Shown here piece after piece: positions 4,486 to 29,243 of a stretch of 64,000 nucleotides of DNA. The position numbers and the translations under genes were made by a program. Source of the stretch: Pycnopodia helianthoides (Eukaryota; Echinodermata; Asteroidea; Forcipulatida; Asteriidae). The stretch is taken from assembly GCA_032158295.1 (NCBI GenBank), contig CM063252.1, forward strand, positions 9,908,744-9,972,743. Direction: 5' to 3'. The notes below the pieces were generated by a model. That model had not been told where the DNA came from. It made no database searches and saw only the letters and a program-made list of their open reading frames with translations. Each line of letters begins with the position of its first letter. Position 1 is the first letter of the stretch.

Positions 4486-4489
4486 TTAA

Positions 4490-10541: not shown

Positions 10542-11585
10542 TTAATAACCAGGCAAATCGTAGACATGCGCAGTCTTACTCAGCGTCTTTATCGGGACTT
10601 GGTATCCTCCACAGATAGCTTCTTCCTTTGAACTCGTCTTCTCCGTCTCGTCCAACCCCGGTACTTTGTAGACTTGTGCAGTCACATTTTGTTTTCCGAA
10701 ATCATTGACTGCCTGGGAAACCACCTCATATGCCGGAGAGGGGGCATCGGGTGTGGAAGCTTTTCCTCCCGGCAGATGTTCCAGATCGACCGGTGTATGA
10801 TGAGACGCTTGCACGGTCCGCTCGCAATCTTCAGGCACGATGTAGATGCCCACATCTTCTCGGACGTTTTGATGACGTTTTCTTGAGGTAGTCGTCGTAG
10901 AAGTGATCGTCGTCCCTTCCCTTTTGGTTCGCTTCGTTTTTCTGCCCTTGGAGCGAACAAAGCACACTAGATTAAGAACGATGACGATTAAAGCACCGGC
11001 GGCTGTGATGATAATGACCGTGACGAGAGAGAAACCAGTGGAGCTTTGGGACCCAGACACCGGCGTGGAAAATGGCGATGGTACGCTTGTAACTTCCCCA
11101 GGCGAACATTCTTCACACGAGACGGCCGAATCAATTGAACAGCGTGTGTCATTGGCGATTGCAGTTATGTTCTGAGACGTCTGTTTGCCATTGTTATTGA
11201 GAGCAAAGCAGGAAAATGTTGCGTTGTCCTTTAGTGTACTGTTTCTGATAGTCAGTCTCAAAGATGCAATATTGTTCGCAATGTCACTGATGCTATACCA
11301 CAAAACTCCACGACTGTCAGATGTTGGTTCGTTACATGCCTTCGACTCAGTGTTACAGGCAGTCACGTTAATCCTACCGAACCCATCTGAGCCACGGTTC
11401 CAACCCACCTCAGAGAGAGACCGTGTACCTTCCGTGGTTCCAAATCTGACAACACAAGATAAATGTAAATCTTCACCGTGACAAAAGTACACCTCGCTGC
11501 TCGAAGGTCTTAGCCTATACGATGAGTCAATTAGTGGCACAGTTGTCATCAGCAACACACAACTAATGTACACCGAGCTGCCCAT
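10542..11585 (-). CDS. Intronless single-Ig transmembrane receptor, VP tail (gene 1)
   Basis: 347 residues in one uninterrupted frame. I start at the ATG at 11585, because the twelve in-frame codons upstream begin only with GTG and the ATG opens a good signal peptide (residues 1-21). Residues ~30-145 form an Ig-like domain: Cys44, Trp62, and D120-N-A-T-F-S-C126 giving the canonical disulphide. Extra cysteines are at 35, 77 and 84, and there are five N-glycosylation sequons. A Cys-containing stalk leads to a helix at 185-210 and a basic anchor. The tail carries Y248 (YIVP), Y286 (YEVV), Y306 (YKVP), Y328 (YQVP) and Y342 (YDLP). Known: phosphorylated YxxP motifs bind Crk-type SH2 domains. Inferred: a type I signalling receptor of the cell surface, perhaps immune. 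Lack of introns is unusual for Ig proteins and suggests a retroposed founder. Confidence 0.85.
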   Translation of the reverse strand: MGSSVYISCVLLMTTVPLIDSSYRLRPSSSEVYFCHGEDLHLSCVVRFGTTEGTRSLSEVGWNRGSDGFGRINVTACNTESKACNEPTSDSRGVLWYSISDIANNIASLRLTIRNSTLKDNATFSCFALNNNGKQTSQNITAIANDTRCSIDSAVSCEECSPGEVTSVPSPFSTPVSGSQSSTGFSLVTVIIITAAGALIVIVLNLVCFVRSKGRKTKRTKREGTTITSTTTTSRKRHQNVREDVGIYIVPEDCERTVQASHHTPVDLEHLPGGKASTPDAPSPAYEVVSQAVNDFGKQNVTAQVYKVPGLDETEKTSSKEEAICGGYQVPIKTLSKTAHVYDLPGY

Positions 11586-11743
11586 TTTTCGCCCCGGAGA
11601 GAAAACCCAGTATCGAGACACAATGATTCAACTTTTGATGTAAATTTGAATGCGTTTGTCTATAAATGCTGGCGTTGGCAGGCACTATGCTTCACCACAC
11701 AGACCACGTTGCTTTATCATGCAGGACTCAGTGCTGTCTTTCA

Positions 11744-11750
11744 TTTTATA
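11744..11750 (-). promoter_or_regulatory. TATA box of gene 1
   Basis: Reads TATAAAA on the minus strand, about 160 bases before the ATG. The same box sits at the same distance in genes 2, 3 and 4. Transcription would begin about 30 bases on, leaving a short 5' leader. Confidence 0.6.
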
Positions 11751-11930
11751 GGCGCCTGTCTTTCATTTTTCTGAACCAGTTTCGTGTTTCGAGTGATTCC
11801 GAAACGGCCATTACGAATGATGTACGCATCGAATTACTGAATAATGACTTAGACGAACTCTTGACAAGGAACAAGATGTACAAAAATTAACTTGCAAGTC
11901 ACTCACTTGATTTTGTGCCGTACTTTTGCT
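11751..11930. repeat. Class A upstream flank of the receptor genes (copy 1)
   Basis: Sequence beyond the TATA box beginning GAACCAGTTTCGTGTTTCGA and running past GAACTCTTGACAAGGAAC. Genes 1, 4 and 5 share this flank; genes 2 and 3 have an unrelated class B flank. Confidence 0.8.
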
Positions 11931-13080
11931 CATGAACCGGAAGCCAATGATTATATCTGGTGAGATGGCGACATTTTTATTTTTGTATCATATTAATTAG
12001 GTTGATTGATTTCGAGATTAGATGAATGTTTTAATGTAAATGATTGTTTTTATGGATGTTTAATCTTCTGTATATTTTATTTTTCAATGGGCGTTTAACT
12101 TTTGTGTTTTATTGTTATTGTGACACGGTGGAGTTTTAGCAATGAAAATCAAAGTGTAATTTGACTCTTGGGTCACCAAGTGAGGTTTTTTATTTTTACA
12201 AACCATTTGACGATTTCTTTTAAAGGAAAAGGTGTTTTGGGTGTCATTTTAAAACGATGTGATACATTGCTAAAGCTTCAGAAAGGTGCATGTAAAATTC
12301 AACGTGGTGTGTAAAACCAAAGTAAAATATGCAGTAATAATTTTGTGTAATGGAATGATAGTCAAAAAGCTTTGGGTACTTTTCACGCTCTGGGTAAACC
12401 TCAACACTTTGTCAAACTTTTCACCTTTGAACTTCTAACTCTGACACATCCCCGGGAAATACCTGCCCTTACTTGAGAGTAGGGCTAAGCAGGGATAACC
12501 CCGGGGTAAGAAACTAGAGTATTCGTTTTTCACAGGAAAATTGCAGCAGGTGTGAACAACGAACATGGGTGGCGGCGGTGGGACTTTACAAAATGTACAG
12601 GAATTTCCTGGAGTTTGATTTCCTGTGAATGTGTATTGTGAGAAGTTGTTGAATCACCCAGTACAGTGGAGATCGGTGCACAATGGACTATTATGGTTAG
12701 TCCCTTTATGTACGAGTCAGTCATGACTGCACGGTCTGATTCCCCGAGCACAAGGGTTTGTAAAGCGTGCATCGCTAAAAGGCAACCATACTGTTTCTGT
12801 CTGGGCGACCTCGCTTTGAGATGCCTTCTGGATTCAATGAACGAGCTACGTGCACAGTTGCATTTTAAATTCCTCGAATAACGTGGTGCTGTTTATAAAT
12901 GGGAGGCTTTTGACCGCTAGAAAACAACAGACCTACCAGGTAAAATTCCATTGTTTACGTAGTTCTAAGCATGCGCACATTGCTGAGAACAATGGCTTTT
13001 ACCTGGTAAGTCTGCTGCCACCTAGCGTCCCAAAAGTCTCCCATTGTTTAACCATAATCTTTTGAGTATTTTCATTGCAG
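11931..13080. repeat. Duplicated intergenic segment (partner about 26410-27570), possible retroelement remnant
   Basis: The segment is repeated upstream of gene 4 with few changes. It holds a hairpin at about 12935-13008 (ACCAGGTAAAA paired with TTTTACCTGGT). A plus-strand frame at 12666-12881 has a Cys-rich stretch (VCKACIAK, PYCFC) like degraded retroelement ORF1 proteins; its duplicate has a stop in it. No receptor exon was recognised. Confidence 0.45.
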
Positions 13081-13189
13081 TGAGTAAGCTGCAAGAGTCC
13101 CAATTTTATATTAACCAAGGAGAATGCAACTTGTCATATTATGATATTCCTGTATGTCAGTTTGTGGTATTAACACCATCATGTGTATA

Positions 13190-13560
13190 TATCTACTTCA
13201 TTATTCTCCTGACGATGACTAGAGCGGGCAAGTCGAAACGTTGAGACCAATTAAAAACTCACTCCGCGGCAGTGAAGTTAATAACGAGAAGTCCCATCGA
13301 TCCACTAAGTGGAAGTAGTAGTCCCGGCCGGTTTCCAACCTTCCGGCCAGGTAGTATAGGCTAGTTAATAAGCAGGACAGATCTTTTCAGGACTAATATA
13401 GTAGTCTCCCGAACTCCAAAAAAATATATATTCCGCATTGGTACAATATATAAAGGCAAGTTCTCAATGAACAAAGCTACACAGCAAAGTAGCTATAGGC
13501 ATTGATTTACCGCAAACTGAATATACATTGATACCTCACCGTGCAATACCTCAAAACCAA
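13190..13560 (+). mobile_element. Dispersed retroelement-like tail, copy 1
   Basis: Begins near CCTGACGATGACTAGAGCGG and GTCGAAACGTTGAGACC, a hairpin-type signature seen at the 3' ends of some invertebrate retroelements, followed by ACTCACTCCGCGGCAGTG. Related copies: about 27680-28050, partial 33430-33600, and inverted about 39130-39360. Confidence 0.5.
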
Positions 13561-13570
13561 CGATATTCTG

Positions 13571-14752
13571 CTAAGTAAGATGGATGACATAAACTCTGCA
13601 GTTATGGTGTTTCTTACCTCGGAGTGTACGGACATTGCATTCTTCAAACGTAGTTCCCTCGTTGCCTATCACTCTATCCGTCTCGTCTGGTTCCAGCACC
13701 TCGTAGACTGGTGCTGTCTGACTTGGTGTTTTAATGGCTACCTCGCTTCCTCCACAGGTAGGTTCTTCGTTGTCTGTCGCTCTATCCGTCTCGTCTGGTT
13801 CCAGTACTTGGTAGACTCGTGCAGTCTGGCTCGGTGTCTTCAACACAACTTGGCTTTCATAATCATTGACTGCCTCGGAAACCACCTCATATGCCGGGGA
13901 GGGGGCACCGGGTGGTCCAGCTTTTCGTCCCGGCAGATGTTCCAGATCGACCGGTGTATGATGAGACGCTTGCACGGTCCGTTCGCAATCTTCTGGCATG
14001 ATGTAGATGCCCACATCTTCTCGGACGTTTTGATGACGTTTTCTTGAGGTAGTCGTCGTAGAAGTGATTGTCTTCCCTTCATCTTTGGTTCGCTTCGTTT
14101 TTCTGCCCTTGGAGCGAACAAAGCACACTAGAATAAGCAGGAAAATGATGCCAATTAAAGCACCGGCGGCTGTGATGATAATGACCGTGACGAGAGAGAA
14201 ACCAGTGGGGCTTTCGGCCCCAGACGCCCGCGTGGAAAATGGCGATGGTACGCTTGTAACTTCCCCAGGCGAACATTCTTCAGACGAGACGGCAGAATCA
14301 ATTGAACAGCATGTGTCATTGGCGATTGCAGTTATGTTCTGAGACGTCTGTTCGCCATTGTTATTGAGAGCAAAGCAGGAAAATGTTGCGTTGTCCTTTA
14401 GTGTACTGTTTCTGATAGTCAGTCTCAACGATGCAACATTGTACGCAGTTTCACTGAAGTCATATCGCAAACCTCCACGACTATCAGTTGTTGGTTCGTT
14501 ACATGCCTTCGACTCGGTGTTACAGGCAGTCACGTTAATCCTACCGAACCCATCTGAGCCACGGTTCCAACCCACCTCGGAGAGAGACTGTATATCTACC
14601 GTGGTTCCAAATCTGACATCACAAGATAAACGTAAATCTTCACCGTGACAAAAGTACACCACGCTGCTTGAAGGTGATAGTGTATACGGCGAGACAATTA
14701 GTGGCACAGTTGTCATCAGCAACACACAACTAATGTACACCGAGCTGCCCAT
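13571..14752 (-). CDS. Intronless single-Ig transmembrane receptor, VL tail (gene 2)
   Basis: 393 residues from the ATG at 14752, which begins the signal peptide. Ig-like domain with Cys44, Trp62 and Cys126, extra Cys35, Cys77 and Cys84; transmembrane helix about 185-212, two residues longer than in gene 1 and without its Asn. Tail tyrosines: Y250 (YIMP), Y288 (YEVV), Y298, Y314 (YQVL), Y350 (YEVL). The repeat unit is again 36 residues, but the second tyrosine of the VP unit has become serine (CGGSEVAIKT against CGGYQVPIKT). YxVL motifs resemble single YxxL modules; their spacing (~33) is not that of an ITAM and the -2 residue does not fit a strict ITIM. A strong donor, CGAG/GTAAGA, follows codon 378, so the last ~14 residues may be intron read-through. 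Inferred surface receptor. Confidence 0.83.
   Translation of the reverse strand: MGSSVYISCVLLMTTVPLIVSPYTLSPSSSVVYFCHGEDLRLSCDVRFGTTVDIQSLSEVGWNRGSDGFGRINVTACNTESKACNEPTTDSRGGLRYDFSETAYNVASLRLTIRNSTLKDNATFSCFALNNNGEQTSQNITAIANDTCCSIDSAVSSEECSPGEVTSVPSPFSTRASGAESPTGFSLVTVIIITAAGALIGIIFLLILVCFVRSKGRKTKRTKDEGKTITSTTTTSRKRHQNVREDVGIYIMPEDCERTVQASHHTPVDLEHLPGRKAGPPGAPSPAYEVVSEAVNDYESQVVLKTPSQTARVYQVLEPDETDRATDNEEPTCGGSEVAIKTPSQTAPVYEVLEPDETDRVIGNEGTTFEECNVRTLRGKKHHNCRVYVIHLT
13618..13618 (-). promoter_or_regulatory. Strong phase-1 splice donor inside the end of gene 2
   Basis: The last exonic base would be 13618 (CGAG, then GTAAGAAA). Splicing here would leave one base of codon 379. The same donor is conserved in gene 5 at 28106. 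Phase 1 is what the candidate terminal exon at 9392-9546 needs. Confidence 0.5.
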
Positions 14753-14914
14753 TTTTCGCCCCGGTGAGAAAACCCAGTATCGAGACACAAAATATTCAAC
14801 TTTGAATGATGTAAATTTGAATGCGTTTGTCTATAAATGCTGGCGTTGGCAGGCACTATGCTTCACCGCACAGACCACGTTGCTTTATCTTGCAGGACTC
14901 AGTGCTGTCTTTCA

Positions 14915-14921
14915 TTTTATA
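14915..14921 (-). promoter_or_regulatory. TATA box of gene 2
   Basis: TATAAAA on the minus strand, about 163 bases upstream of the ATG, within a block conserved in all five copies. Confidence 0.6.
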
Positions 14922-14935
14922 GGCGCCTGTCGTAT

Positions 14936-15048
14936 TTTTTTAGGTGTTCGTGCAACAGCGCGAACAACTCATTGTTTTTGTTCGTTTTTTTTTTTTTAGG
15001 TGTTCGTGCAATAGCGCGAACAACTCTTTGTTAGCTGTTCCGGAACAG
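14936..15048. promoter_or_regulatory. Class B upstream flank: palindromic GTTCG...CGAAC repeats (2 units)
   Basis: Two units 56 bases apart contain TGTTCGTGCAACAGCGCGAACA (22 bases in all, stem TGTTCG/CGAACA) separated by T-rich runs; the second has one change. They lie just upstream of the TATA box. A perfect 14-base palindrome CTGTTCCGGAACAG follows at 15035-15048. A third truncated unit starts at about 15236. These could be dimeric transcription-factor sites. Confidence 0.5.
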
Positions 15049-15289
15049 GTTTTATTTTCGTCGAGATTTTTATTATTTTTATTATTATTATTCTTTGTTT
15101 CCGCCTAAACCCCATAGCATTTGTACACATATTTTTTATACGCCTAATCTCCTAATGTTTAAATATTTAAGAGTTAGATCCTATATCAATTTGAAGCTAA
15201 GAACATAAACTTAATTTTTGTTCGTTTTTTTTTTTAGGTGTTCGTAAACTTAATGGGGAAATCAATCAATTAATAGATTAATTTGACAA

Positions 15290-15565
15290 CACGTCGGCTT
15301 AGAACTATAATGTCGTTAGCGCAGTTTGTATGAATTTCATCAAATTGGTTTTGCAAATTTTGGAGCTCTTGATAAATGGAGTTTATTGATCAAGAGTGGA
15401 CTTCAAAAATTAGTTTGGCAAAAAGAAACATTCAGTTTCAAAGAAAAGATTTACTTGTGGGTTTTGATTTATTTTTTCAAACTTATTGGCATTTTTCACT
15501 TAACAACCTTTTAATCATTATGGATTTGAAATTGCCATTGACCTTATAGCACTGAGCTGACGAAA
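15290..15565. repeat. Dispersed repeat with residual frame, copy 1
   Basis: Related to 21590-21870 (duplicate) and to a diverged copy at 45090-45350. The frame reads IGFANFGAL then SGLQKLVWQKET and is recognisable in the diverged copy, suggesting an old coding element, but nothing identifies it. Confidence 0.5.
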
Positions 15566-15726
15566 AGAAGTTACTAAAAGCATAATCACTGTACTTTTTA
15601 CATGCACCTATCAGATACGACGGACACACTATTTACATTATTTTCCGATCTTTTTTTTCATTCAAATTGGCACAGTTTTTATTTAAAAAAAAGTAATTCT
15701 CGCATTTTTTCGCAACAAAATTTCTG

Positions 15727-15974
15727 GCACTCAGTATTCACGGGCTTTAAATATATTGGTTAATATTGATTTTATATCAGTATTTCTGGCACTAAGTTTA
15801 CACGGGCTTTAAATATATTGGTTAATATTGATTTTATATCAGTATTTCTGGCACTAAGTTTACACAGGCTTTAAACATACTGGTCAATATTGATTTTATA
15901 TCAGTATTTCTGGCACTAAGTTTACACAGGCCTTAAACATACTGGTCAATGTTGATTTTATTTTAGAATCAATT
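15727..15974. repeat. 62-bp tandem array, 4 units
   Basis: GGCACT period exactly 62 from 15727 to 15913. Same unit variants as the other arrays. It lies upstream of gene 2. Confidence 0.95.
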
Positions 15975-16313
15975 TTACATTTTTAAGACCTATTTAAAGA
16001 CCTTTTGACCCCCTGCACCTACGTCACACGCGGCTACTGTCTGCCACGCCCGCCATTTTGAGGAATCAAGTTTCTGGTATTGTATTAAGCATGATAAATG
16101 CCGCGTTGCCTAAAATGCGCACTGCACTATGTAACGCTGATGGGACATTGAATCCCAAAATGATAAAACAAAGATTTACATATTTAGTTAAAACCATGTC
16201 TAATAAGGTTGACCCATCCAGCAATGCTAATCATTTAGGCCCCTCGTTACACAAAAATACTTAAAAAAAAAAAAAGACTTTGGAAGAAAGTGCATACATA
16301 AAAGATTAATCAA
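15975..16313. repeat. Conserved module following a 62-bp array, copy 2
   Basis: Contains the YY1-like CCGCCATTTTG and the frame at 16058-16264, here stopped by a TAA before an A run. It is cut at 16313, where the next duplication block begins: this is the visible tandem-duplication junction. Confidence 0.75.
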
Positions 16314-17265
16314 GTACAGGTATTTTATCAAGAAAAATACTGCAAAATTAGTTATCAACCCATTTAGTGTTTTGGGGACCAAATTCTATATGACAATGTG
16401 GGCTTGTTATTATACTGATCTTTTAAACATGAATACACCAGTACAAACTTTATTTTGACCTTTTCCAGTGCTTTATTCCTCTATTCCTAGGATAGCAATG
16501 GAGTCCAGGTTAATTTATGTCCCCGCAAATATTTGCAAATTATATTTGCGATCATATTTTATTAACAAAGACATTTGCGATGTGTGATATCCCTTCAGGG
16601 CCATCATAACTGCCACTCCCCATTAACATGGAACGTTAAACTAATTTAAAAAGGTACACAAAAAAGAACATCAGAGGAATGCAAATGAAATGCAACAAAC
16701 AAAATGGAAACAATATTGAAAGGGCTTATTCCCCATCACAAAACCTGAGCCTCTGGAGTGGCAACGTGTCAACCAATGATGGCTTCGGTGTAACGGTTTA
16801 ACTTTCACTATCAACTCGCACACGTCATCCGCCTTGACGGAAGGCAGATAGTTGTGTTATTAAGATTTCAAATTCAAAATCTAGTTCACAGGATGTAACT
16901 TTTATTCCTCGACGCTTCTACACCTTCTAACCTTTTTGAAAACCATATAGTTATATATTGTTGTATTATTGTTTAGCTTTTTACTAAAGGAAAACGTACC
17001 AAGAAAAAAAAACCACGAGGGAAACGGACTGGGTAAATCAATCAATTAAAAAATCAATTTGGAGTTGAACAAAAGTAATTACTAAAAGCATATTCTCTGT
17101 ACTTTTTACACATATTTACAAAAAGACTTTGTATCAGATACGACGGATACAATATTTACATTACTTTCCGATCTTTTTTGTTCATTCAAATTGGCACAGT
17201 TTTTATTTTAAAAACAAATTCTCGCATTTTGAAGACGACATAAATTTTTGTAAACAAAATTTGTA

Positions 17266-18071
17266 GCACTCAGTATACACGGGCTTTAAATATATTGGTT
17301 AATATTGATTTTATATCAGTATTTCTGGCACTAAGTTTACACGGGCTTTAAATATATTGGTTAATATTGATTTTATTTCAGTATTTCTGGCACTAAGTTT
17401 ACACAGGCTTTAAATATATTGGTTAATATTGATTTTATATCAGTATTTCTGGCACTAAGTTTACACAGGCTTTAAACATACTGGTCAATATTGATTTTAT
17501 ATCAGTATTTCTGGCACTAAGTTTACACAGGCCTTAAACATACTGGTCAATATTGATTTTATATCAGTATTTCTGGCACTAAGTTTACACAGGCTTTAAA
17601 CATACTGGTCAATATTGATTTTATATCAGTATTTCTGGCACTAAGTTTACACAGGCCTTAAACATACTGGTCAATATTGATTTTATATCAGTATTTCTGG
17701 CACTAAGTTTACACAGGCTTTAAATATATTGGTTAATATTGATTTTATATCAGTATTTCTGGCACTAAGTTTACACAGGCTTTAAACATACTGGTCAATA
17801 TTGATTTTATATCAGTATTTCTGGCACTAAGTTTACACAGGCTTTAAACATACTGGTCAATATTGATTTTATATCAGTATTTCTGGCACTAAGTTTACAC
17901 AGGCCTTAAACATACTGGTCAATATTGATTTTATATCAGTATTTCTGGCACTAAGTTTACACAGGCTTTAAACATACTGGTCAATATTGATTTTATATCA
18001 GTATTTCTGGCACTAAGTTTACACAGGCTTTAAATATATTGGTCAATGTTGATTTTATTTTAGAATTAATT
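17266..18071. repeat. 62-bp tandem array, 13 units
   Basis: Thirteen units at an exact 62-base period (17266 to 18010). Most extra units are of the AACATACTGGTC variant and alternate CTTTAAAC with CCTTAAAC, so expansion probably copied blocks of more than one unit. Confidence 0.95.
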
Positions 18072-18470
18072 TGAGCATTGCTTTTCAATTTACATTTTTA
18101 AAGACCTATTTAAAGAGCTATTGACTCCCTGCACCTACGTCACATTCGGTTACTGTCTGTCACGCCCGCCATTTTGAGGAATCAAGTTTCTAGTGTTGAA
18201 TTAAGCGTGATAAATGCCGCGTTGACTAAAATGCGCACTACACTATGTAACGCTGGGACATTGAATCCCAAAATGATAAAACAAAGATTTATATATTTAG
18301 TTAAAACCATGTCTAATAAGGTTGACCCATCCAGCAATGCTGATCATTTAGGCCCCTCGTTACATACAAATACTAAAAAAAGACTTTGGAAGAAAGTGCA
18401 TACATAAAAGATTAATCAATATTAATAATCAGTTACAAAAAATTGACAACATTATCATACTAGGACAAAA
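18072..18470. repeat. Conserved module following a 62-bp array, copy 3
   Basis: Almost identical to the module after the 7-unit array; the frame runs 18174-18407. Confidence 0.75.
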
Positions 18471-18869
18471 CTACACACCCTATCAGCCAACCACACAAAT
18501 AAAAATGCGAGATAAATACACTACTCAATAGCCAAATATGATTATGGGTCGTGCTTTTTACAATTTTCTTTTCCTGCTAACAGCATGGATAAAACGCTAC
18601 ATTTTTGTTAAGGTAGTGGTTTTATGACATGGAATGTCATTAAAACAACATCGTTCTTTTTTCATGACGACGATTTCCTTGAAAAGTTTCCCTAGATCGC
18701 AACCATCCAGTTTGTGAATATTGATGACATCATAATTTCCAAATTAAAACATAATTTTTTTTTCCATGCGGTTTCTTTTTCTTTACATTTTGTTTTTTTC
18801 GTGGCAATTATTTCCTTGAAAGGTAGACGACCTTTTCAAGGAAACAATTCTAGGAAGTTCCTGGTTCGT

Positions 18870-19024
18870 TCAGACGACTGCATTCCCCTTGTAGGGTACA
18901 TACCAGACATTCTCAATTAATGTTCCCTCGTCCGAGTCTTGGGTGCATGGCCTACGGGACCCCGCCCCTTCATTTGGACCCACCTCGGCTTCACCCTGGT
19001 CCTCAGCCGCTAATGGCTCTTTTT
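18870..19024 (-). CDS. Candidate shared 3'-terminal exon, copy 2
   Basis: Same translation as copy 1 at 9392-9546, with the same acceptor and stop. It lies about 1 kb downstream of gene 3. See copy 1 for the description; function unknown. Confidence 0.42.
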
Positions 19025-19508
19025 CTAAAAAGAAATTTAAAAACAACAAGTCCAAGTTAAAGACACCCAAAATTGACTTCCTTGTATATGCTGGTTTGGA
19101 TATCAGCAATTACTTAGACTTGATTCAAGTCCCTTTCTCGTGTGAGAGGTCCCTAAGCATATCCCGCCAACTAGCAAACAACCCGTATAGCAGTGCGCGC
19201 TCGCCGTCAAAAATGTGGTCCCGAGAATGGAACAGGTTGGGGAATGCAGAGCATCACAAAAAATAGTTTTCTGGGGATGGCACGGGATTGGGACTTGAGT
19301 CAAGTCTAGCAATTACTTGGCTATGCAACTATTAAAGCCTCCGAATGAAGAGAATTACATTATAATGCTTGCTACGTCACGAATGAAGCCCCCTTTTCAA
19401 ACTACAGAAACAATTCCCGGGACATAAACGCCCAGAGAATTCTTTGGGATTTACACCGCACCATTTTTTCCCACCCTTGATGCAGTTTTCCTGGTCAGAA
19501 TGAACACT

Positions 19509-19707
19509 AGGGCCCAATTTCATAGAGCTGCTTCATTAAAAAATATTGCGTAACAAGTGTCTGCTGAGCAGAAATGAGCAGGATACCAGTCACAAATTGT
19601 ACACGTGACGTGGTATTTTGGCTGGTAACTTTACTCTGGTAAGCATAATTTTGTTGTGCTTGGCTACCTTTTTGTGCCTAATAAGCAGCTCTATTAAATT
19701 GGGCCCT
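19509..19707. mobile_element. MITE of the GGGCCCAATTTCATAGAGC family, copy 2
   Basis: Duplicate of the element at 10031-10229, carried by the segmental duplication and not a separate insertion. Confidence 0.85.
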
Positions 19708-19939
19708 GGGCCGGTATTCACAAAACTACTTGATTCACAAAACAATAAGCACCCTACTTAATTACCAAACTAAGACGAGTCTTACTGACCAAGTGGTATT
19801 CACAAATCATTTGTGCTTAGTGCCCCGCTTACTTTGGCGTCTTAAATCTAAGTGCGGTCCGATGACTTAAGTGGGGCACTAGGGTGTCATGGCGCAAACT
19901 TAAGTACTCCACTAAGCTAAGTTTCGTGAATACGGCCCC
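19708..19939. mobile_element. MITE with GGGCCGTATTCAC termini, copy 2
   Basis: Duplicate of 10230-10461, same abutting arrangement. Confidence 0.8.
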
Positions 19940-20019
19940 TGATGCTAACCTGCGCGGTTATCTCATTAAACCCTACAGTCCCCAAATGGTCCCGAGCCTG
20001 AGTGGCTAATTCCCGGCAG

Positions 20020-21171
20020 TTAATAACCAGGCAAATCGTAGACATGCGCAGTCTTACTCAGCGTCTTTATCGGGACTTGGTATCCTCCACAGATATCTTC
20101 TTCCTTTGAACTCGTCTTGTCCGTCTCGTCCAACCCCGGTACTGAGTAGACATGTGCAGTCTGACGTAGCGTCTTTATCGGGACTTGGTATCCTCCACAG
20201 ATAGCTTCTTCCTTTGAACTCGTCTTCTCCGTCTCGTCCAACCCCGGTACTTTGTAGACTTGTGCAGTCACATTTTGTTTTCCGAAATCATTGACTGCCT
20301 GGGAAACCACCTCATATGCCGGAGAGGGGGCATCGGATGTGGAAGCTTTTCCTCCCGGCAGATGTTCCAGATCGACCGGTGTATGAAGAGACGCTTGCAC
20401 GGTCCGCTCGCAATCTTCAGGCACGATGTAGATGCCCACATCTTCTCGGACGTTTTGATGACGTTTTCTTGAGGTAGTCGTCGTAGAAGTGATCGTCGTC
20501 CCTTCCCTTTTGGTTCGCTTCGTTTTTCTGCCCTTGGAGCGAACAAAGCACACTAGATTAAGAACGATGACGATTAAAGCACCGGCGGCTGTGATGATAA
20601 TGACCGTGACGAGAGAGAAACCAGTGGAGCTTTGGGACCCAGACACCGGCGTGGAAAATGGCGATGGTACGCTTGTAACTTCCCCAGGCGAACATTCTTC
20701 ACACGAGACGGCCGAATCAATTGAACAGCATGTGTCATTGGCGATTGCAGTTATGTTCTGAGACGTCTGTTTGCCATTGTTATTGAGAGCAAAGCAGGAA
20801 AATGTTGCGTTGTCCTTTAGTGTACTGTTTCTGATAGTCAGTCTCAACGATGCAACATAGTACGCAGTTTCACTGAAGTCATATCGCAAACCTCCACGAC
20901 TATCAGTTGTTGGTTCGTTACATGCCTTCGACTCGGTGTTACAGGCAGTCACGTTAATCCTACCGAACCCATCTGAGCCACGGTTCCAACCCACCTTGGA
21001 GAGAAACTGTGTACCGTCCGTGGTTCCAAATCTGACATAACAAGATAAATGTAAATCTTCACCGTGACAAAAGTACACCACGCTGCTCGAAGGTATTAGC
21101 CTATACGATGAGTCAGTTAGTGGCACAGTTGTCATCAGCAACATACAACTAATGTACACCGAGCTGCCCAT
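20020..21171 (-). CDS. Intronless single-Ig transmembrane receptor, long VP tail (gene 3)
   Basis: 383 residues from the ATG at 21171. Signal peptide, Ig-like domain (Cys44, Trp62, Cys126) and helix at 185-210 as in gene 1. It is exactly 36 residues longer than gene 1, because the tail has one more copy of the repeat. Tyrosines: Y248 (YIVP), Y286 (YEVV), Y306 (YKVP), Y328 (YQVP), Y342 (YSVP), Y364 (YQVP), Y378 (YDLP), so six of seven are YxxP. The gene is mosaic: the N-terminal strand (SSYRL), stalk and tail match gene 1, but residues ~86-109 match gene 2, and its upstream flank is class B like gene 2. Inferred surface signalling receptor. Confidence 0.85.
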   Translation of the reverse strand: MGSSVYISCMLLMTTVPLTDSSYRLIPSSSVVYFCHGEDLHLSCYVRFGTTDGTQFLSKVGWNRGSDGFGRINVTACNTESKACNEPTTDSRGGLRYDFSETAYYVASLRLTIRNSTLKDNATFSCFALNNNGKQTSQNITAIANDTCCSIDSAVSCEECSPGEVTSVPSPFSTPVSGSQSSTGFSLVTVIIITAAGALIVIVLNLVCFVRSKGRKTKRTKREGTTITSTTTTSRKRHQNVREDVGIYIVPEDCERTVQASLHTPVDLEHLPGGKASTSDAPSPAYEVVSQAVNDFGKQNVTAQVYKVPGLDETEKTSSKEEAICGGYQVPIKTLRQTAHVYSVPGLDETDKTSSKEEDICGGYQVPIKTLSKTAHVYDLPGY

Positions 21172-21333: not shown

Positions 21334-21340
21334 TTTTATA
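21334..21340 (-). promoter_or_regulatory. TATA box of gene 3
   Basis: TATAAAA on the minus strand, about 163 bases before the ATG, in the conserved promoter block. Confidence 0.6.
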
Positions 21341-21354
21341 GGCGCCTGTCGTAT

Positions 21355-21540
21355 TTTTTTAGGTGTTCGTGCAACAGCGCGAACAACTCTTTGTTTTTGT
21401 TCGGTTGTTTTTTTTAGGTGTTCGTGCAACAGCGCGAACAACTCATTGTTTTTGTTCTTTTTTTTTTTCAGGTGTTCGTGTAGTAGCGCGAACAACTCTT
21501 TGTTTTTGCTCTTTTTTTTTTTTTTTAGGTGTTCGTAAAC
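21355..21540. promoter_or_regulatory. Class B upstream flank: palindromic GTTCG...CGAAC repeats (3 units plus a partial)
   Basis: Units start at 21361, 21416 and 21470, with a truncated one at 21527, period 54-57. The third unit has changed loop bases (TAGTAGCG) but keeps GTTCG and CGAAC ends. Gene 2 has two full units, so copy number near the promoter differs between paralogues. Confidence 0.5.
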
Positions 21541-21870: not shown

Positions 21871-22036
21871 GCATAATCACTGTACTTTTTACATGCACCT
21901 ATCAGATACGAAGGACACACTATTTACATTATTTTCCGATCTTTTTTTTTAATTCAAATTGGCACAGTTTTTGTTTTAAAAAAAGTAATTCTCGCATTTT
22001 CAAAGACAACATAAATTTTTGTAAACAAAATTTCTG

Positions 22037-22594
22037 GCACTCAGTATTCACGGGCTTTAAATATATTGGTTAATATTGATTTTATATCAGTATTTCTGGC
22101 ACTAAGTTTACACGGGCCTTAAACATACTGGTCAATATTGATTTTATATCAGTATTTCTGGCACTAAGTTTACACAGGCTTTAAACATACTGGTCAATAT
22201 TGATTTTATATCAGTATTTCTGGCACTAAGTTTACACAGGCCTTAAACATACTGGTCAATATTGATTTTATATCAGTATTTCTGGCACTAAGTTTACACA
22301 GGCCTTAAACATACTGGTCAATATTGATTTTATATCAGTATTTCTGGCACTAAGTTTACACAGGCTTTAAACATACTGGTCAATATTGATTTTATATCAG
22401 TATTTCTGGCACTAAGTTTACACAGGCCTTAAACATACTGGTCAATATTGATTTTATATCAGTATTTCTGGCACTAAGTTTACACAGGCCTTAAACATAC
22501 TGGTCAATATTGATTTTATATCAGTATTTCTGGCACTAAGTTTACACAGGCCTTAAACATACTGGTCAATGTTGATTTTATTTTAGAATCAATT
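22037..22594. repeat. 62-bp tandem array, 9 units
   Basis: Nine units at exact period 62 (22037 to 22533), dominated by the CCTTAAACATACTGGTC variant. Confidence 0.95.
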
Positions 22595-22990
22595 TTACAT
22601 TTTTAAGACCTATTTAAAGACCTTTTGACTCCCTGCACCTACGTCACACGCGGCTACTGTCTGCCACGCCCGCCATTTTGAGGAATCAAGTTTCTGGTAT
22701 TGTATTAAGCATGATAAATGCCGCGTTGCCTAAAATGCGCACTGCACTATGTAACGCTGATGGGACATTGAATCCCAAAATGATAAAACAAAGATTTACA
22801 TATTTAGTTAAAACCATGTCTAATAAGGTTGACCCATCCAGCAATGCTAATCATTTAGGCCCCTCGTTACACCAAAATACTTTAAAAAAAAAGAAGACTT
22901 TGGAAGAAAGTGCATACATAAAAGTTTAATCAATATTAATAATCAGTTACAAAAAATTGACAACATTATCATACTAGGACAAAACTATAC
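22595..22990. repeat. Conserved module following a 62-bp array, copy 4
   Basis: Closest to the module at 15975-16313; the frame at 22678-22929 has the GATGGG three-base insertion and stays open through the A run. Confidence 0.75.
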
Positions 22991-23384
22991 ACCCTATCAG
23001 CCAACCACACAATAAAAATGCGAGATAAATATACTACTCTATAGCCAAATATGATTATGGGTCGTGCTTTTTACAATTTTCTTTTCCTGCTCACAGACTG
23101 GATAAAACGCTACATTTTTGTTAAGGTTGTGGTTTTATGACATGGAATGTCATTAAAACAACATCGTTCTTTTTTCATGACGACGATTTCCTTGAAAAGT
23201 TTCCCTAGATCACAAGCACAAGTATCCAGTTTGTGAATATTGATGACATCATAATTTAAAAATAAAAACATAATTTTTTTTTTTCATGCGGTTTGTTTTT
23301 CTTGTTACGTTTTTGTTTTCGTGGCAATTATTTCCTTGAAAGGTAGACGACCTTGATGCAGTTTTCCTGGTCAGAATAAACACC

Positions 23385-23582
23385 AGGGCCCAATTTCATA
23401 GAGCTGCCTAATTAGAAAATATTGCTTAACAAGTGTCTGCCGAGCAGAAATGAGCGGGATACCAGTCACAAATTGTACACGTGACGTGGTATTTTGGCTG
23501 GTAACTTTACTCTGGTAAGCATAATTTTGTTGTGCTTGGCTACCTTTTGTGCTTAATAAGCAGCTCTATTAAATTGGGTCCT
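23385..23582. mobile_element. MITE of the GGGCCCAATTTCATAGAGC family, copy 3
   Basis: An extra copy inserted in the third flank, where copies 1 and 2 have no element. It replaces part of the hairpin region next to the terminal-exon candidate. Confidence 0.8.
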
Positions 23583-23589
23583 GGTTCGT

Positions 23590-23744
23590 TCAGACGACTG
23601 CATTCCCCTTGTAGGGTACATACCAGACATTCTCAATTAATGTTCCCTCGTCCGAGTCGTGGGTGCATGGCCTAGGGGACCCCGCCCCTTCATTTCGACC
23701 CACATCGGCTTCACCCTGGTCCTCAGCCGCTAATGGCACTTTTT
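23590..23744 (-). CDS. Candidate shared 3'-terminal exon, copy 3
   Basis: Same 155-base length, acceptor (TTCCTTTTAG) and stop as the other two. The five differences I count from copy 1 all change an amino acid (Q to H, R to P, P to R, E to D, E to V) and none is silent. It lies downstream of pseudogene 4 and of the gene 5 donor. Confidence 0.42.
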
Positions 23745-23827
23745 CTAAAAGGAATTTTAAAAACAAAAACAAGTCCAAGTTAAAGACCCAAAGTGAGTTC
23801 CTTTTAGGCTGGTTTGGATATCAGCAA

Positions 23828-24210
23828 TTAAAGGAACATTACAGAATTGGTTTTTGCTAACAAAACAGTTGCTGGCAGTTTAAGCACTTTATGTAATCCA
23901 CCATATACATAAACGGACAAACCTGTAGAAGTTTGAGATCGATCGGCCATCTGGGTCACGAGAAAATAGTGAAAAACCGATTACACATTTGCAATAGGTT
24001 CAACAAATGAATAAAACGCTCACTGAGCGATAAACTCCAATCGGAAAATTAGTTCAATCAATTTCATCAAATATGGCATTTCAGACAGAAATATTTCAAG
24101 GGATGTTTTCTACCATCATCACCATTAGACTGTGTAAGTTTTATGTAAATCTGTGATCAAAAGTATATTTTACAAGTTTTTTTCTTACCAATTCTGTAAT
24201 GTTCCTTTAA
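23828..24210. mobile_element. TTAA-flanked MITE, family 1
   Basis: TTAA at both ends; termini AAAGGAACATTACAGAATTG and the complement CAATTCTGTAATGTTCCTTT. It is inserted into the third receptor flank after that flank was duplicated, since copies 1 and 2 lack it. Confidence 0.85.
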
Positions 24211-24386
24211 CTATTAAAGCCTCCGAATGAAGAGAATTACATTATAATGCTTGCTACGCCACGAATGAAGCCCCTTTTTCAAACTACAGAAACAATTCCA
24301 CATAAACGCCCAGAGAATTCTTTGGGATTTACACCGCACCATTTTTTCCCACCCTTGATGCAGTTTTCCTGGTCAGAATGAAAACT

Positions 24387-24584
24387 AGGGCCCAATTTCA
24401 TAGAGCTGCTTCATTAAAAAATATTGCGTAACAAGTGTCTGCTGAGCAGAAATGAGCATGATACCAGTCACAAATTGTACACGTGACGTGGTATTTTGGC
24501 TGGTAACTTTACTCTGGTAAGCATAATTTTGTTGTGCTTGGCTACTTTTTGTGCCTAATAAGCAGCTCTATTAAATTGGGCCCT
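24387..24584. mobile_element. MITE of the GGGCCCAATTTCATAGAGC family, copy 4
   Basis: Positional counterpart of the elements at 10031 and 19509, immediately followed by the next MITE. Confidence 0.85.
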
Positions 24585-24833
24585 GGGCCGGTATTCACAA
24601 AACTACTTGATTCACAAAACTACTTGATTCACAAAACAATAAGCACCCTACTTAATTACCAAACTCAGACGAGTCTTACTGACCAAGTGGTATTTACAAA
24701 GCATTTGCGCTTAGTGCCCCGCTTACTTTGGCGTCTTAAATCTAAGTGCGGTCCGATGACTTAAGTGGGGCACTAGGGTGTCATGGCGCAAACTTAAGTA
24801 CTCCACTAAGCTAAGTTTCGTGAATACGGCCCC
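24585..24833. mobile_element. MITE with GGGCCGTATTCAC termini, copy 3
   Basis: Counterpart of 10230-10461, with an additional ACTACTTGATTCACAAA repeat inside its left arm. Confidence 0.8.
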
Positions 24834-24928
24834 TGATGCTAACCTGCGCGGTTATCTCATTAAACCCTACAGTCCCCAAATGGTCCCGAGCTTGAGTGGC
24901 TAATTCCCGGCAGTTAATAACCAGGCAC

Positions 24929-26075
24929 TTAGTAGACATGCGCAGTCTGACTCAGCGTCTTTATCGGGACTTGGTATCCTCCAAAGACATCTTCTTCCTT
25001 TGAACTCGTCTTCTCCGTCTCGTCCAACCCCGGCATCGTGATTTCGGAAACATGTGCAGTCTGACTCGGCGTCTTTATCGGGACTTGGTATCCTCCACAG
25101 ATAGCTTCATCCTTTGAACTCGTCTTGTCCGTCTCGTCCAACCCCGGTACTGCGTAGACTTGTGCCGTCACATTTTATTTTCCAAAGTCATTGACTGCCT
25201 GGGAAACCACCTCATATGCCGGGGAAGGGGCACCGGGTGGTCCAGCTTTTCGTCCCGGTAGATGTTCCAGATCGTCCGGTGTATGATGAGACGCTTGCAC
25301 GGTCCGCTCGCAATCTTCAGGCATGGTGTAGATGACCACATCTTCTCGGACGTTTTGATGACGTTTTCTTAAGGTAGTCGTCGTAGAAGTGAGCGTCGTC
25401 CCTTCCCTTTTGGTTCGCTTCGTTTTTCTGCCCTTGGAGCAAACAAAGCACGCTAGAATAAGCAGGAAAATGATGACGATTAAAGCACCGGCGGCTGTGA
25501 TGATAATGACCGTGACGAGCGAGAAACCAGTGGAGCTTTGGGACCCAGACACCGGCGTGGAAAATGGCGATGGTACGCTTGTAACTTCCCCATGCGAACA
25601 TTCTTCAGACGAGACGGCCGAATCAATTGAACAGCATGTGTCATTGGCGATTGCAGTTATGTTCTGAGACTTCTGTTCGCCATTGTTATTGAGAGCAAAG
25701 CAGGAAAATGTTGCGTTGTCCTTTAGTGTACTGTTTCTGATAGTCAGTCTCAACGATGCAATATTGTTCGCAGTGTCACTGAGTCATATCCAAAACTCCA
25801 CGACTATCAGTTGTTGGTTCGTTACATGCCTTCGACTCGGTGTTACAGGCAGTCACGTTAATCCTACCGAACCCATCTGAGCCACGGTTCCAACCCACCT
25901 CAGGAGAGAGACTCGTGTACCTTCCGTGGTTCCAAATCTGACATCACAAGATAAAGTAAATCTTCACCGTGACAAAAGTACACCTCGCTGCTTGAAGGTC
26001 ATGGGTATACGACGAGACAATTAGTGGCACAGTTGTCATCAGCAACATACAACTAATGTACACCAGACTTCCCAT
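24929..26075 (-). pseudogene. Broken VP-tail Ig receptor (gene 4)
   Basis: The ATG at 26075 and signal-peptide coding sequence are intact. The Ig-coding part then carries single-base deletions (around TATACCCATGACC and AAGATTTACTTT), two single-base insertions (around ACGAGTCTCTCTCCTGAG) and two missing bases near codon 95, so the frame is lost repeatedly. The stalk, helix and first tail part read open at 25175-25753, where a CAA has become TAA (25175-25177). The remaining tail is open at 24929-25171 but has lost one tyrosine motif and ends early. Several independent lesions argue for a real pseudogene and against a sequencing slip. Confidence 0.85.
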
Positions 26076-26234
26076 TTTTCGCCCCGGTGAGAAAACCCAG
26101 TATCGAGACACAAAATATTCAACTTTTGATGTAAATTTGAATGCGTTTGTCTATAAATGCTGGCGTTGGCAGGCACTATGCTTCACCACACAGACCACGT
26201 TGCTTTATCATGCAGGACTCAGTGCTGTCTTTCA

Positions 26235-26241
26235 TTTTATA
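26235..26241 (-). promoter_or_regulatory. TATA box of pseudogene 4
   Basis: TATAAAA is retained about 160 bases upstream of the ATG although the coding part is broken. Confidence 0.5.
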
Positions 26242-26410
26242 GGCGCCTGTCTTTTTTTCTGAACCAGTTTCGTGTTTCGAGTGATTCCGAAACGGCCATT
26301 ACGAATGATGTACGCATCGAATTACTGAATAATGACTTAGACGAACTCTTGACAAGGAACAAGATGTCCAAAAATTAACTTGCAAAGATACACTCACTTG
26401 ATTTTGTGCC
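26242..26410. repeat. Class A upstream flank (copy 2)
   Basis: Nearly identical to 11751-11930 upstream of gene 1. Confidence 0.8.
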
Positions 26411-27679
26411 CAACTTTATGCCATGAACCGGAAGCCAATGATTATATCTGGTGAGATGGCGACATTTTTATTTTTGTATCATATTAATTAGGTTGATTGA
26501 TTTCGAGATTAGATGGATGTTTTAATGTAAATGATTGTTTTTATGGATGTTTAATCTTCTGTATATTTTATTTTTCAGTGGGCGTTTAACTTTTGTGTTT
26601 TATTGTTATTGTGACACGGTGGAGTTTTAGCAATGAAAATCAAAGTGTAATTTGACTCTTGGGTCACCAAGTGAGTTTTTTATTTTTACAAACCATTTGA
26701 CGATTTCTTTTAAAGGAAAAGGTGTTTTGGGTGTCATTTTAAAACGATGTGATACATTTGCTAAAGCTTCAGAAAGGTGCATGTAAAATTCAACGTGGTG
26801 TGTAAAACCAAAGTAAAATATGCAGTAATAATTTTGTGTAATGGAATGATAGTCAAAAAGCTTTGGGTACTTTTCACGCTCTGGGTAAACCTCAACACTT
26901 TGTCAAACTTTTCACCTTTGAACTTCTAACTCTGACACATCCCCGGGAAATACCTGCCCTTACTTGAGAGTAGGGCTAAGCAGGGATAACCCCGGGGTAA
27001 GAAACTAGAGTATTCGTTTTTCACAGGAAAATTGCAGCAGGTGTGAACAACGAACATGGGTGGCGGCGGTGGAGCTTTACAAACTGTACAGGAATTTCCT
27101 GGAGTTTGATTTCCTGTGAATGTGTATTGTGAGAAGTTGTTGAATCACCCAGTACAGTGGAAATCGGTGCACCATGGACTATTATGGTTAGCCCCTTTAT
27201 TATGAGTCAGTCATGACTGCACGGTCTGATTCCCCGAGCACAAGGGTTTGTAAAGCGTGCATCGCTAAAAGGCAACCATACTGTTTCTGTCTGGGCGACC
27301 TCGCTTTGAGATGCCTTCTGGATTAAATGAACGAGCTGCGTGCACAGTTGCATTTTAAATTCCTCGAATAACGTGGTGCTGTTTATAAATGGGAGGCTTT
27401 TGAACGCTAGAAGACAACAGACCTACCAGGTAAAATTCCATTGTTTACATAGTTCTAAGCATGCGCACATTGCTGAGAACAATGGCTTTTACCTGGTAAG
27501 TACGCTGCCACCTAGCGTCCCAAAAGTCTCCCATTGTTTAACCATAATCGTTTGAGTATTTTCATTGCAGTGAGTAAGCTGCAAGAGTCCCAATTTTATA
27601 TTAACCAAGGAGAATGCAACTTGTCATATTATGATATTCCTGTATGTCAGTTTGTGGTATTAACACCATCATGTGTATA
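26411..27679. repeat. Duplicated intergenic segment (partner about 11931-13190)
   Basis: Counterpart of the segment between genes 1 and 2, with the same order and few indels. The hairpin recurs at about 27425-27498. The plus-strand Cys-rich frame seen in the partner is stopped here by GGATTAAATG. Confidence 0.6.
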
Positions 27680-28050
27680 TATCTACTTCATTATTCTCCT
27701 GACGATGACTAGAGCGGGCAAGTCGAAACGTTGAGACCAATTAAGAACTCACTCCGCGGCAGTGAAGTTAATAACGAGAAGTCCCATCGATCCACTAAGT
27801 GGAAGTAGTAGTCCCGGCCGGTTTCCAACCTTCCGGCCAGGTAGTATAGGCTAGTTAATAAGCAGGACAGATCTTTTCAGGACTAATAGTAGTCTCCCGA
27901 ACTCCAACAAAATATATATTCCGCATTGGTACAATATATAAAGGCAAGTTCTCAATGAACAAAGCTACACAGCAAAGTAGCTGTAGGCATTGATTTACCG
28001 CAAACTGAATATACATTGATACCTCACCATGCAATACCTCAAAATCAACG
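27680..28050 (+). mobile_element. Dispersed retroelement-like tail, copy 2
   Basis: Duplicate of 13190-13560, directly downstream of the VL gene 5 just as copy 1 is downstream of gene 2. Confidence 0.5.
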
Positions 28051-28058
28051 ATATCCTG

Positions 28059-29243
28059 CTAAGTAAGATGGATGACATAAACTCTGCAGTTATGGTGTTT
28101 CTTACCTCGGAGTGTACGGACATTGCATTCTTCAAACGTAGTTCCCTCGTTGCCAATCAATCTTTCCGTCTCGTCTGGTTCCAGCACCTCGTAGACTGGT
28201 GCTGTCTGACTTGGTGTTTTAATGGCTACCTCGCTTCCTCCACAGGTAGGTTCTTCGTTGTCTGTCGCTCTATCCGTCTCGTCTGGTTCCAGTACTTGGT
28301 AGACTGGTGCAGTCTGGCTCGGTGTCTTCAACACAACTTGGCTTTCATAATCATTGACTGCCTCGAAAACCACCTCATATGCCGGGGAGGGGGCACCGGG
28401 TGGTCCAGCTTTTCGTCCCGGCAGATGTTCCAGATCGACCGGTGTAAGATGAGACGCTTGCATGGTCCGCACGCAATCTTCTGGCACGGTGTAGATGCCC
28501 ACATCTTCTCGGACGTTTTGATGACGTTTTCTTGAGGTAGTCGTCGTAGAAGTGATTGTCTTCCCTTCATCTTTGGTTCGCTTCGTTTTTCTGCCCTTGG
28601 AGCGAACAAAGCACACTAGAATAAGCAGGAAAATGATGCCAATTAAAGCACCGGCGGCTGTGATGATAATGACCGTGACGAGCGAGAAACCAGTGGGGCT
28701 CTCGGCCCCAGACACCGGCGTGAAAAATGGCGATGGTACGCTTGTAACTTCCCCAGGCGAACATTCTTCAGACGAGACGGCCGAATCACTTGAACAGCAT
28801 GTGTCATTGGCGATTGCAGTTATGTTCTGAGACGTCTGTTCGCCATTGTTATTGAGAACAAAGCAGGAAAATGTTGCGTTGTCCTTTAGTGTACTGTTTC
28901 TGATAGTCAGTCCCAACGGTGCAACATTGTTCGCAGTTTCACTTTTGTCATATCGCAAACCTCCACGACTGTCAGATGTTGATTCGTTACATGCCTTCGA
29001 CTCGGTGTTACAGGCAGTCACGTTAATCCTACCGAACGCATCTGAGCCACGGTTCCAACCCACCTCGGAGAGAGACCGTGTACCTTCCGTGGTTCCAAAT
29101 CTGACATCACAAGATAAACGTAAATCTTCACCGTGACAAAAGTACACCACGCTGCTTGAAGGTGATAGTGTATACGGCGAGACAATTAGTGGCACAGTTG
29201 TCATCAGCAACAACATACAACTAATGTACACCAAGCTGCCCAT
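28059..29243 (-). CDS. Intronless single-Ig transmembrane receptor, VL tail (gene 5)
   Basis: 394 residues from the ATG at 29243; one extra Leu in the signal peptide compared with gene 2. Ig-like domain with Cys45, Trp63 and Cys127; helix about 186-213. Tail tyrosines: Y251 (YTVP), Y289 (YEVV), Y299, Y315 (YQVL), Y351 (YEVL). Block FGTTEGTRSLSEV in the Ig domain matches gene 1, although most of the protein matches gene 2, again a mosaic. The phase-1 donor CGAG/GTAAGA is at 28106, so the last ~14 residues may be read-through. Unlike the others its TATA box is damaged. Inferred type I surface receptor. Confidence 0.83.
   Translation of the reverse strand: MGSLVYISCMLLLMTTVPLIVSPYTLSPSSSVVYFCHGEDLRLSCDVRFGTTEGTRSLSEVGWNRGSDAFGRINVTACNTESKACNESTSDSRGGLRYDKSETANNVAPLGLTIRNSTLKDNATFSCFVLNNNGEQTSQNITAIANDTCCSSDSAVSSEECSPGEVTSVPSPFFTPVSGAESPTGFSLVTVIIITAAGALIGIIFLLILVCFVRSKGRKTKRTKDEGKTITSTTTTSRKRHQNVREDVGIYTVPEDCVRTMQASHLTPVDLEHLPGRKAGPPGAPSPAYEVVFEAVNDYESQVVLKTPSQTAPVYQVLEPDETDRATDNEEPTCGGSEVAIKTPSQTAPVYEVLEPDETERLIGNEGTTFEECNVRTLRGKKHHNCRVYVIHLT
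28106..28106 (-). promoter_or_regulatory. Strong phase-1 splice donor inside the end of gene 5
   Basis: Last exonic base 28106, then GTAAGAAA. Identical in context and phase to the gene 2 site. The nearest phase-compatible acceptor recognised downstream is the terminal-exon candidate at 23590-23744. Confidence 0.5.

Follow-up and report, generated by a model that had tools for sequence, protein, structure and literature searches.

The 64,000-nucleotide stretch of the sea star Pycnopodia helianthoides analyzed here (assembly GCA_032158295.1, contig CM063252.1, positions 9,908,744 to 9,972,743 of the forward strand; hereafter the window) carries at 10542-29243 five minus-strand copies of an immunoglobulin (Ig) receptor gene, four of which (c1, c2, c3 and c5) are open. 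Each open copy encodes in one frame a hydrophobic start, one Ig domain, a stalk, one helix and a tyrosine-rich tail, with signal peptides and helices called by hydropathy. In window coordinates, the copies and the parts of c3 are as follows.

10542-11585, minus strand: c1, intact single-frame receptor of 347 residues, type A tail (YxVP) with 2 repeat units
13571-14752, minus strand: c2, intact, 393 residues, type B tail (YxVL)
20020-21171, minus strand: c3, intact, 383 residues, type A tail with 3 units and 6 YxxP motifs
20737-21105, minus strand: predicted V-set Ig domain of c3, residues about 23-145 (AlphaFold2 model on residues 19-150)
20542-20604, minus strand: transmembrane helix of c3, residues 190-210, from hydropathy
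20020-20541, minus strand: cytoplasmic tyrosine-repeat tail of c3, including a 108-bp tandem repeat at 20038-20269
24914-26075, minus strand: c4, broken copy (single-base indels and stops), the partner of c1 in a duplicated block
28059-29243, minus strand: c5, intact, 394 residues, type B tail, TATA element degenerate

These copies belong to an array of about 67 kb on one strand of contig C10 (9871359-9937986), with more members below the window. The open copies are free of coding introns, as a retrogene would be; this was inferred from the open frames and from alignment to annotated proteins, and applies to the coding sequence and not to the 5'-untranslated region. Modeling of the c3 Ig region with AlphaFold2 produced a V-set fold (predicted local distance difference test score, pLDDT, 87; predicted template modeling score, pTM, 0.82), and in the predicted model the window copies show a V-type beta sandwich, the B-F cysteines and the C-strand Trp. 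The solved structures best matching the c3 model were T-cell-receptor V domains, and adhesion Ig domains such as those of DIP/Dpr and NCAM were also among the matches of the fold search. By Pfam alone the window copies stay below its cut-off; matches to PRIMA1, TMEM51, EphA2_TM, RIFIN, ASFV_J13L and UL40 were sub-threshold, fell on the helix or on low-complexity stretches and were disregarded. A preliminary description of this DNA, which had reported five minus-strand copies, four of them intact, with an Ig-like domain in a single intron-free frame and an architecture of no named family, is thus confirmed, the nearest relatives being uncharacterised proteins of Asterias.

The window copies are nested in kilobase segmental duplications and, with one exception, carry the same core-promoter-like element CAGGCGCCTATAAAA, found by sequence match.

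10558-14941: two-gene block c1+c2 (4.4 kb), 96.4% identical to 25044-29431
25044-29431: second two-gene block c4+c5, copy of the c1+c2 block
8153-10683: 3' flank of c1 plus its last 142 coding bases (2.5 kb), 98.6% identical without indel to 17631-20161, the same part of c3
11744-11758, minus strand: CAGGCGCCTATAAAA of c1
14915-14929, minus strand: CAGGCGCCTATAAAA of c2
21334-21348, minus strand: CAGGCGCCTATAAAA of c3
26235-26249, minus strand: CAGGCGCCTATAAAA of c4
29406-29420, minus strand: degenerate counterpart of CAGGCGCCTATAAAA at c5, TATA part lost, position counted by hand

The element lies about 165-169 bases above the ATG in four of the five copies; its 4 matches compare with 0.10 expected by shuffling, the four being homologous copies and not independent occurrences. 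Because this promoter-like element and kilobases of flank are common to the copies, they spread by DNA duplication, which bears out the tandem expansion proposed in the preliminary description. No CGCC-(T/C)ATA core turned up in the 400 bases above any of the seven neighbors m1-m7. Related 54-56-bp tandem repeats (14938-15054 and 21354-21523) lie just upstream of c2 and c3, beside the common element, and 62-bp satellite arrays (8153-8580, 15720-15961, 17259-18058 and 22030-22581; about 4 to 13 units, 94-97% matches) sit between the receptor genes and inside the common flanks, where they may have driven unequal exchange.

Among named proteins, the closest are an uncharacterised A. amurensis protein of 660 residues and isoform X2 of A. 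rubens LOC117296766 (P0006/P0008), which are 88% identical to each other. The window copies show significant homology to this family over Ig1 (64-66% identity to A. rubens), stalk, helix and tail, and they share with it the signal peptide and the reiterated nature of the tyrosine tail. To judge from these identities, the sequence probably comes from a genus near Asterias but distinct from it. They differ in that in the Asterias proteins Ig1 is separated from the stalk by a second Ig domain and the tail has 7-8 YEVL-type units, whereas the window copies have one Ig domain, 2-3 units and, in the A-type, YxVP motifs. The window copies have no Ig2, nor did any part of the window give a significant match to it. 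A fold model of the Asterias two-Ig protein, built on 6 sequences, reached a pLDDT of 32 and was not used.

Neighbors in the same array include both forms. Three of them (m1, m2 and m3) have one Ig domain and YATL/YSTL/YAVV- or YTML-type tails, and m4-m7 have two Ig domains each. A single frame runs from the start through Ig and helix in m2, m3 and m7, so that m7 holds both Ig domains and the helix in one frame, with a short tail. In m1 and m4 the reading through start, Ig and helix is interrupted by one frame break inside Ig1, which is a frameshift rather than an intron because the two frames abut or overlap. In m5 and m6 both Ig domains read through and the frame changes in the stalk, with the frames overlapping; the m6 stalk (L014 8126-9379, minus strand) contains a minisatellite coding a repeated DPQDGTPTTPTAGDITTPR-like unit, and the change in m5 (L014 2560-3474, minus strand) is likewise in the stalk. 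Several of these neighbors have Asterias counterparts, which within each species lie on contigs of identical length and hence probably on a single one. The last 65 tail residues of m3 and m4 are identical at 63 positions, as against 50 of 65 between their likely Asterias counterparts, which looks like homogenisation of the two tails. One further piece of the two-Ig type lies inside the window.

3715-4485, minus strand: fragment covering the stalk, helix and tyrosine tail of a two-Ig-type neighbor; upstream of it no Ig domain was found

Because intronless two-Ig paralogues (m4-m7) adjoin the window copies and the Asterias relatives are of the two-Ig type, the window copies are most likely a derived subfamily that has lost Ig2, and the simplest history on the sequences compared would be an intronless two-Ig ancestor followed by in-frame loss of Ig2. 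This bears on the founder, which the preliminary description had taken to be a retroposed single-Ig mRNA. The open members do lack coding introns, and retroposition has been proposed for the intronless echinoderm gene kirrelL (PMC8903837). Nevertheless, such a founder appears very improbable, given the two-Ig neighbors and relatives, the single frame of m7, and the promoter-like element and flanks common to the copies. No spliced parent was found among the matches listed from the search of the sea star's own genome (479 Mb, 742 contigs), although an unlike parent could be missed, and a two-Ig query, for which 110 of 120 candidates were scored, gave 39 listed matches, none of them in a frame shorter than 127 codons. 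The retroposed founder was not shown; the copies spread by DNA duplication and most likely descend from the intronless two-Ig type. Retroposition of a single-Ig mRNA through exon skipping was also considered and rejected as the likely origin of the window copies, since intronless two-Ig relatives surround them. If retroposition occurred at all, it is probably far older than the cluster, because long single frames are common among the other V-set matches of the genome.

The tails of the open copies fall into two types. The Asterias tails consist of 7-8 units built on VYEVL, with 8-10 YxxPhi motifs and 1 YxxP. Type B tails (c2 and c5) keep VYEVL-type units (YxxPhi 3, YxxP 1), and type A tails (c1 and c3) are built of VYKVP, VYSVP or VYDLP units and have 4-6 YxxP motifs and 1 YxxPhi. 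A second YxVP site arises where GGYQVP takes the place of the GGSEVA/GGDEV linker; c3 has it in its two full units and c1 in its single full unit. This distribution suggests that the YxVL tail is ancestral and that the reduplicated YxVP tail, of Crk type, is derived. The phosphorylated motif (pYxxP) is the consensus of the Crk SH2 domain, a specificity that is ancient and is already found in binding by a choanoflagellate Crk relative (PMC5043372), and the Crk-DOCK180-Rac pathway acts in phagocytosis and engulfment (PMC2689226). Because the Ig domains of A and B copies are alike (92-96% of bases) while their tails differ and pYxxP is the Crk SH2 consensus, A and B copies should send different signals, which is the main mechanistic prediction of this work.

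The array is not isolated in the genome. A V-set scan, in which 150 of 423 candidates were scored and to whose scored matches all counts refer, found 82 matches in single frames of at least 300 codons, 6 at 200-299 and 62 below 200; a comparison scan with I-set (150 scored of 767 candidates) gave 36, 12 and 102, respectively. The 82 long-frame V-set matches lie on contigs C10 (44), C18 (15), C5 (8), C11 (4) and others (11). When every eighth of the 82 by rank was sampled (n=10, position 57 replacing 56), 9 of 10 loci had a signal-like start and a helix in frame, and the tenth (L058) had neither, so about one in ten of the long frames may not be such a receptor. Tail tyrosines numbered at least 5 in six of the nine receptors, 4 in one, 1 in another and none in the last. 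Ig, helix and tail were also present in eight further loci, six picked from four contigs before reading and two taken from the P0008 search; the tail of one of them (L048) is short. Strict immunoreceptor tyrosine-based inhibitory motifs (ITIMs) occur in several family members elsewhere in the genome (GLVYADLD, GLIYADLD and SLHYANLD). Three loci (L048, L049 and L055) have short or tyrosine-free tails and no basic residue in the printed helices, and are possible activating, decoy or decayed forms.

Other Ig expansions came up in the same scans. Contig C20 (about 0.4-0.5, 6.6-7.0, 10.6-11.0 and 13.1-14.0 Mb) holds 43 of the 62 short-frame V-set matches, mostly in frames of about 113-200 codons, and represents a second, spliced-looking V-set expansion. 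One V-set match (C10:309133-309420, minus strand) falls inside an open frame that runs without interruption for 5596 codons and may encode a giant repeat protein. Long I-set frames at C17:13.54-13.57 Mb (four of 776-798 codons) and C2:16.82-16.87 Mb (three of 768-787) suggest further intronless Ig gene clusters.

Taken together, these results make it reasonably probable that the array encodes germline immune-type receptors with a rewired signaling tail, which form part of a large family of single-frame V-set genes. Sequence, predicted fold and the genome-wide set support the multi-copy immune-type receptor architecture put forward in the preliminary description; nothing specific speaks for the allorecognition role raised with it, and immune or cell-surface recognition fits better. 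We infer an immune function, a kinase and an SH2 partner for these receptors along the following lines. Ligand binding by the ectodomain would take place at the surface of cells, most likely coelomocytes, and clustering would lead Src-type kinases to phosphorylate the reiterated tail. The ancestral YxVL units would then dock one class of SH2 protein, and the derived A-type tail, with two YxVP sites per full unit, would from its motif specificity be expected to dock Crk-type SH2 adaptors and so to link an ectodomain of the same kind to uptake or spreading driven by Rac.

The same features could belong to cell-adhesion or developmental receptors, whose ectodomains would mediate cell-cell contact and whose YxVP tail would remodel actin. 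The Ig gene kirrelL lacks introns in all echinoderms examined (PMC8903837), YxxP arrays are classical adhesion-signaling motifs, and DIP/Dpr and NCAM were among the fold matches described above. We nevertheless regard adhesion receptors as an unlikely alternative, though a serious one, because copy turnover, broken copies and a multigene set spread over the genome are more in keeping with recognition systems than with a gene for developmental adhesion, and because relatives carry canonical ITIMs.

Sequence divergence among the copies is uneven. Between c1 and c3, 24 of the 369 sites in the Ig segment differ, compared with 3 of 445 in stalk, helix and proximal tail (p 4e-6) and 31 of 2389 in the 3' flank (p 3e-8); the coding difference as a whole (29/880, mis-paired last repeat units left out) likewise exceeds the 31/2389 of the adjacent non-coding sequence (p 3e-4). 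Between c2 and c5, 35 of 1182 coding and 35 of 1978 adjacent non-coding bases differ (p 0.033), and the Ig segment (15/369) is above the intergenic value of 35/1978 (p 0.009). An excess of the Ig segment over the rest of the gene was observed for c1/c3 only. Informative sites at 59-122 and from 400 on join c1 with c3, all five at 164-310 (inside the Ig domain) join c2 with c3, and one at 28 joins c1 with c2; none of 5000 shuffles was as ordered as the 37 informative sites up to position 880. The c2-like tract inside the c3 Ig domain is, to judge from this site pattern, a conversion or recombination tract.

Several observations weigh against reading the array as working receptors with a specially diversifying V domain. 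The c1/c3 5' flank differs at 4 of 96 compared bases, so the excess is not confined to the Ig segment; the c2/c5 Ig segment (15/369) is not above stalk, helix and tail (14/451, p 0.57); and between c2 and c3, which have different tail types, the tail is more diverged than the Ig domain. Whole-frame ratios of nonsynonymous to synonymous substitution rates (dN/dS) are close to 1 (0.78-1.49), which makes relaxed constraint a possibility. The Ig segment of c1/c3 also has elevated synonymous divergence (dS 0.063, dN 0.070), so that conversion from a diverged donor accounts for the Ig excess of this pair without selection. Loops resembling complementarity-determining regions (CDRs) are weakly enriched for variable sites (10/27 versus 17/95, p 0.063). 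The strict ITIM, (S/I/V/L)xYxx(I/V/L), occurs 0 times in the tails of c1, c2, c3 and c5, compared with 2 in each of P0006 and P0008. Around the five stops, neither AATAAA nor ATTAAA was seen out to 700 bases, and c5 lacks the TATA part of the promoter-like element. Frame breaks are present in the assembly in c4 and in four of the seven neighbors (m1, m4, m5 and m6), though they could partly be assembly errors, and the m7 tail is shortened. We do not claim positive selection as the sole cause of Ig divergence, since dN and dS increase together and the sites reveal a conversion tract. Targeting of variation to the CDRs was also set aside, the p of 0.063 being for all four loops together; variable residues make up 9 of 13 in BC and DE and 1 of 14 in C'C'' and FG (C'C'' 0/10).

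Some of these points would also be expected of a decaying array, made up mostly of pseudogenes that stay open through recent duplication and gene conversion and have no current function. Besides the dN/dS values and the breaks in c4, m1, m4, m5 and m6, several fragments are broken, and in simulations a frame was still open in 31% of trials after 35 random substitutions. Between c2 and c5, however, there is one 3-base in-frame indel in 1182 coding bases versus 7 indels, 5 of them frame-breaking, in 1978 adjacent non-coding bases; the c1/c3 pair is uninformative on this point because it has no indels in either part. The new YxVP site recurs in each full A-type unit, and the Asterias relatives keep the architecture and the tails. 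Decay thus appears improbable, and we keep to the reading of the array as immune-type receptors.

Elsewhere in the window, a 12-bp tandem repeat (42942-43116, 14.6 units) is open on both strands and would encode PEPR-like or GSGL-like repeats, and a 175-codon open frame (54718-55242, minus strand) has no Pfam match at E 0.05. A Pfam search of raw minus-strand 10-kb pieces (1-10000, 30001-40000 and 45301-55300) returned nothing above the curated cut-off.

The presence of so many tyrosine-tailed V-set receptors in a deuterostome outside the chordates is relevant to the origin of vertebrate-style Ig immune receptors. More tentatively, and with odds somewhat short of even, sea stars may possess a system resembling the leukocyte receptor complex, composed largely of single-frame V-set genes. 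These would lie in several clusters and include versions with ITIM, YMxL and YxVP motifs and others with short tails; in the window copies the V domain would keep changing by conversion or selection, and a swap of the tail from YxVL to reduplicated YxVP would have altered its SH2 specificity. The set would number some 70-80 among the scored matches, a figure extrapolated from 9 of 10 sampled out of 82, with most candidates unscored. If this is true, sea stars would have evolved, independently of vertebrates, a germline repertoire of paired receptors without introns. Since no intron interrupts its coding frame, each receptor is open to cloning directly from DNA. The Ig domain and the tail differ in history, which makes the array suitable for testing how signaling output is rewired while recognition is kept. 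A recent review treats echinoderm immunity, in its available passages, through Toll-like, NOD-like and scavenger receptors and the 185/333 family (PMC13428168), and no description of an intronless Ig receptor array in sea stars was found among the matches listed from the open-licence literature.

Among known systems, the teleost NILTs, together with paired receptors of the KIR, LILR and TREM type, are likewise a clustered multigene family with one or two V-type Ig domains, long tails with tyrosine motifs and pseudogenes (PMC3022915). In contrast to the sea star frames, which have no coding intron, the one-Ig salmon NILTs are described as having six exons, one of them given over to the Ig domain, and phase-1 introns (PMC3022915), and the window tails differ further in lacking strict ITIMs. 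Botryllus FcoR resembles the array in bringing together in one locus Ig receptors with an ITIM, a hemi-immunoreceptor tyrosine-based activation motif (hemITAM) or a bare YxxI/L/V core motif (PMC12065747), but its ectodomain is reported to combine a V-Ig, sushi and two C2 Ig domains, whereas here there are one or two Ig domains and no sushi match in the scanned proteins. The Hydractinia Alr complex, likened here by description only, also comprises tandem invertebrate Ig-like receptors with tyrosine motifs (as cited in PMC12065747). Echinoderm kirrelL provides the precedent of an intronless Ig gene with a proposed origin by retrotransposition, but it is a single-exon gene of skeletogenic cell fusion, and the available text on it mentions no tandem array (PMC8903837). 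The window's 4.4-kb block and 62-bp repeat arrays recall, as an analogy only, the sea urchin 185/333 clusters, for which the accessible part of the source describes 4.2-4.6-kb segmental duplications with short tandem repeats at their boundaries and suggests gene conversion. Finally, the substrate domain of p130Cas/BCAR1 also bears repeated YxxP sites that bind the Crk SH2 domain when phosphorylated; it is a docking protein of the cell interior, whereas here 4-6 YxxP sites stand on a receptor tail, and the analogy is one of mechanism only.

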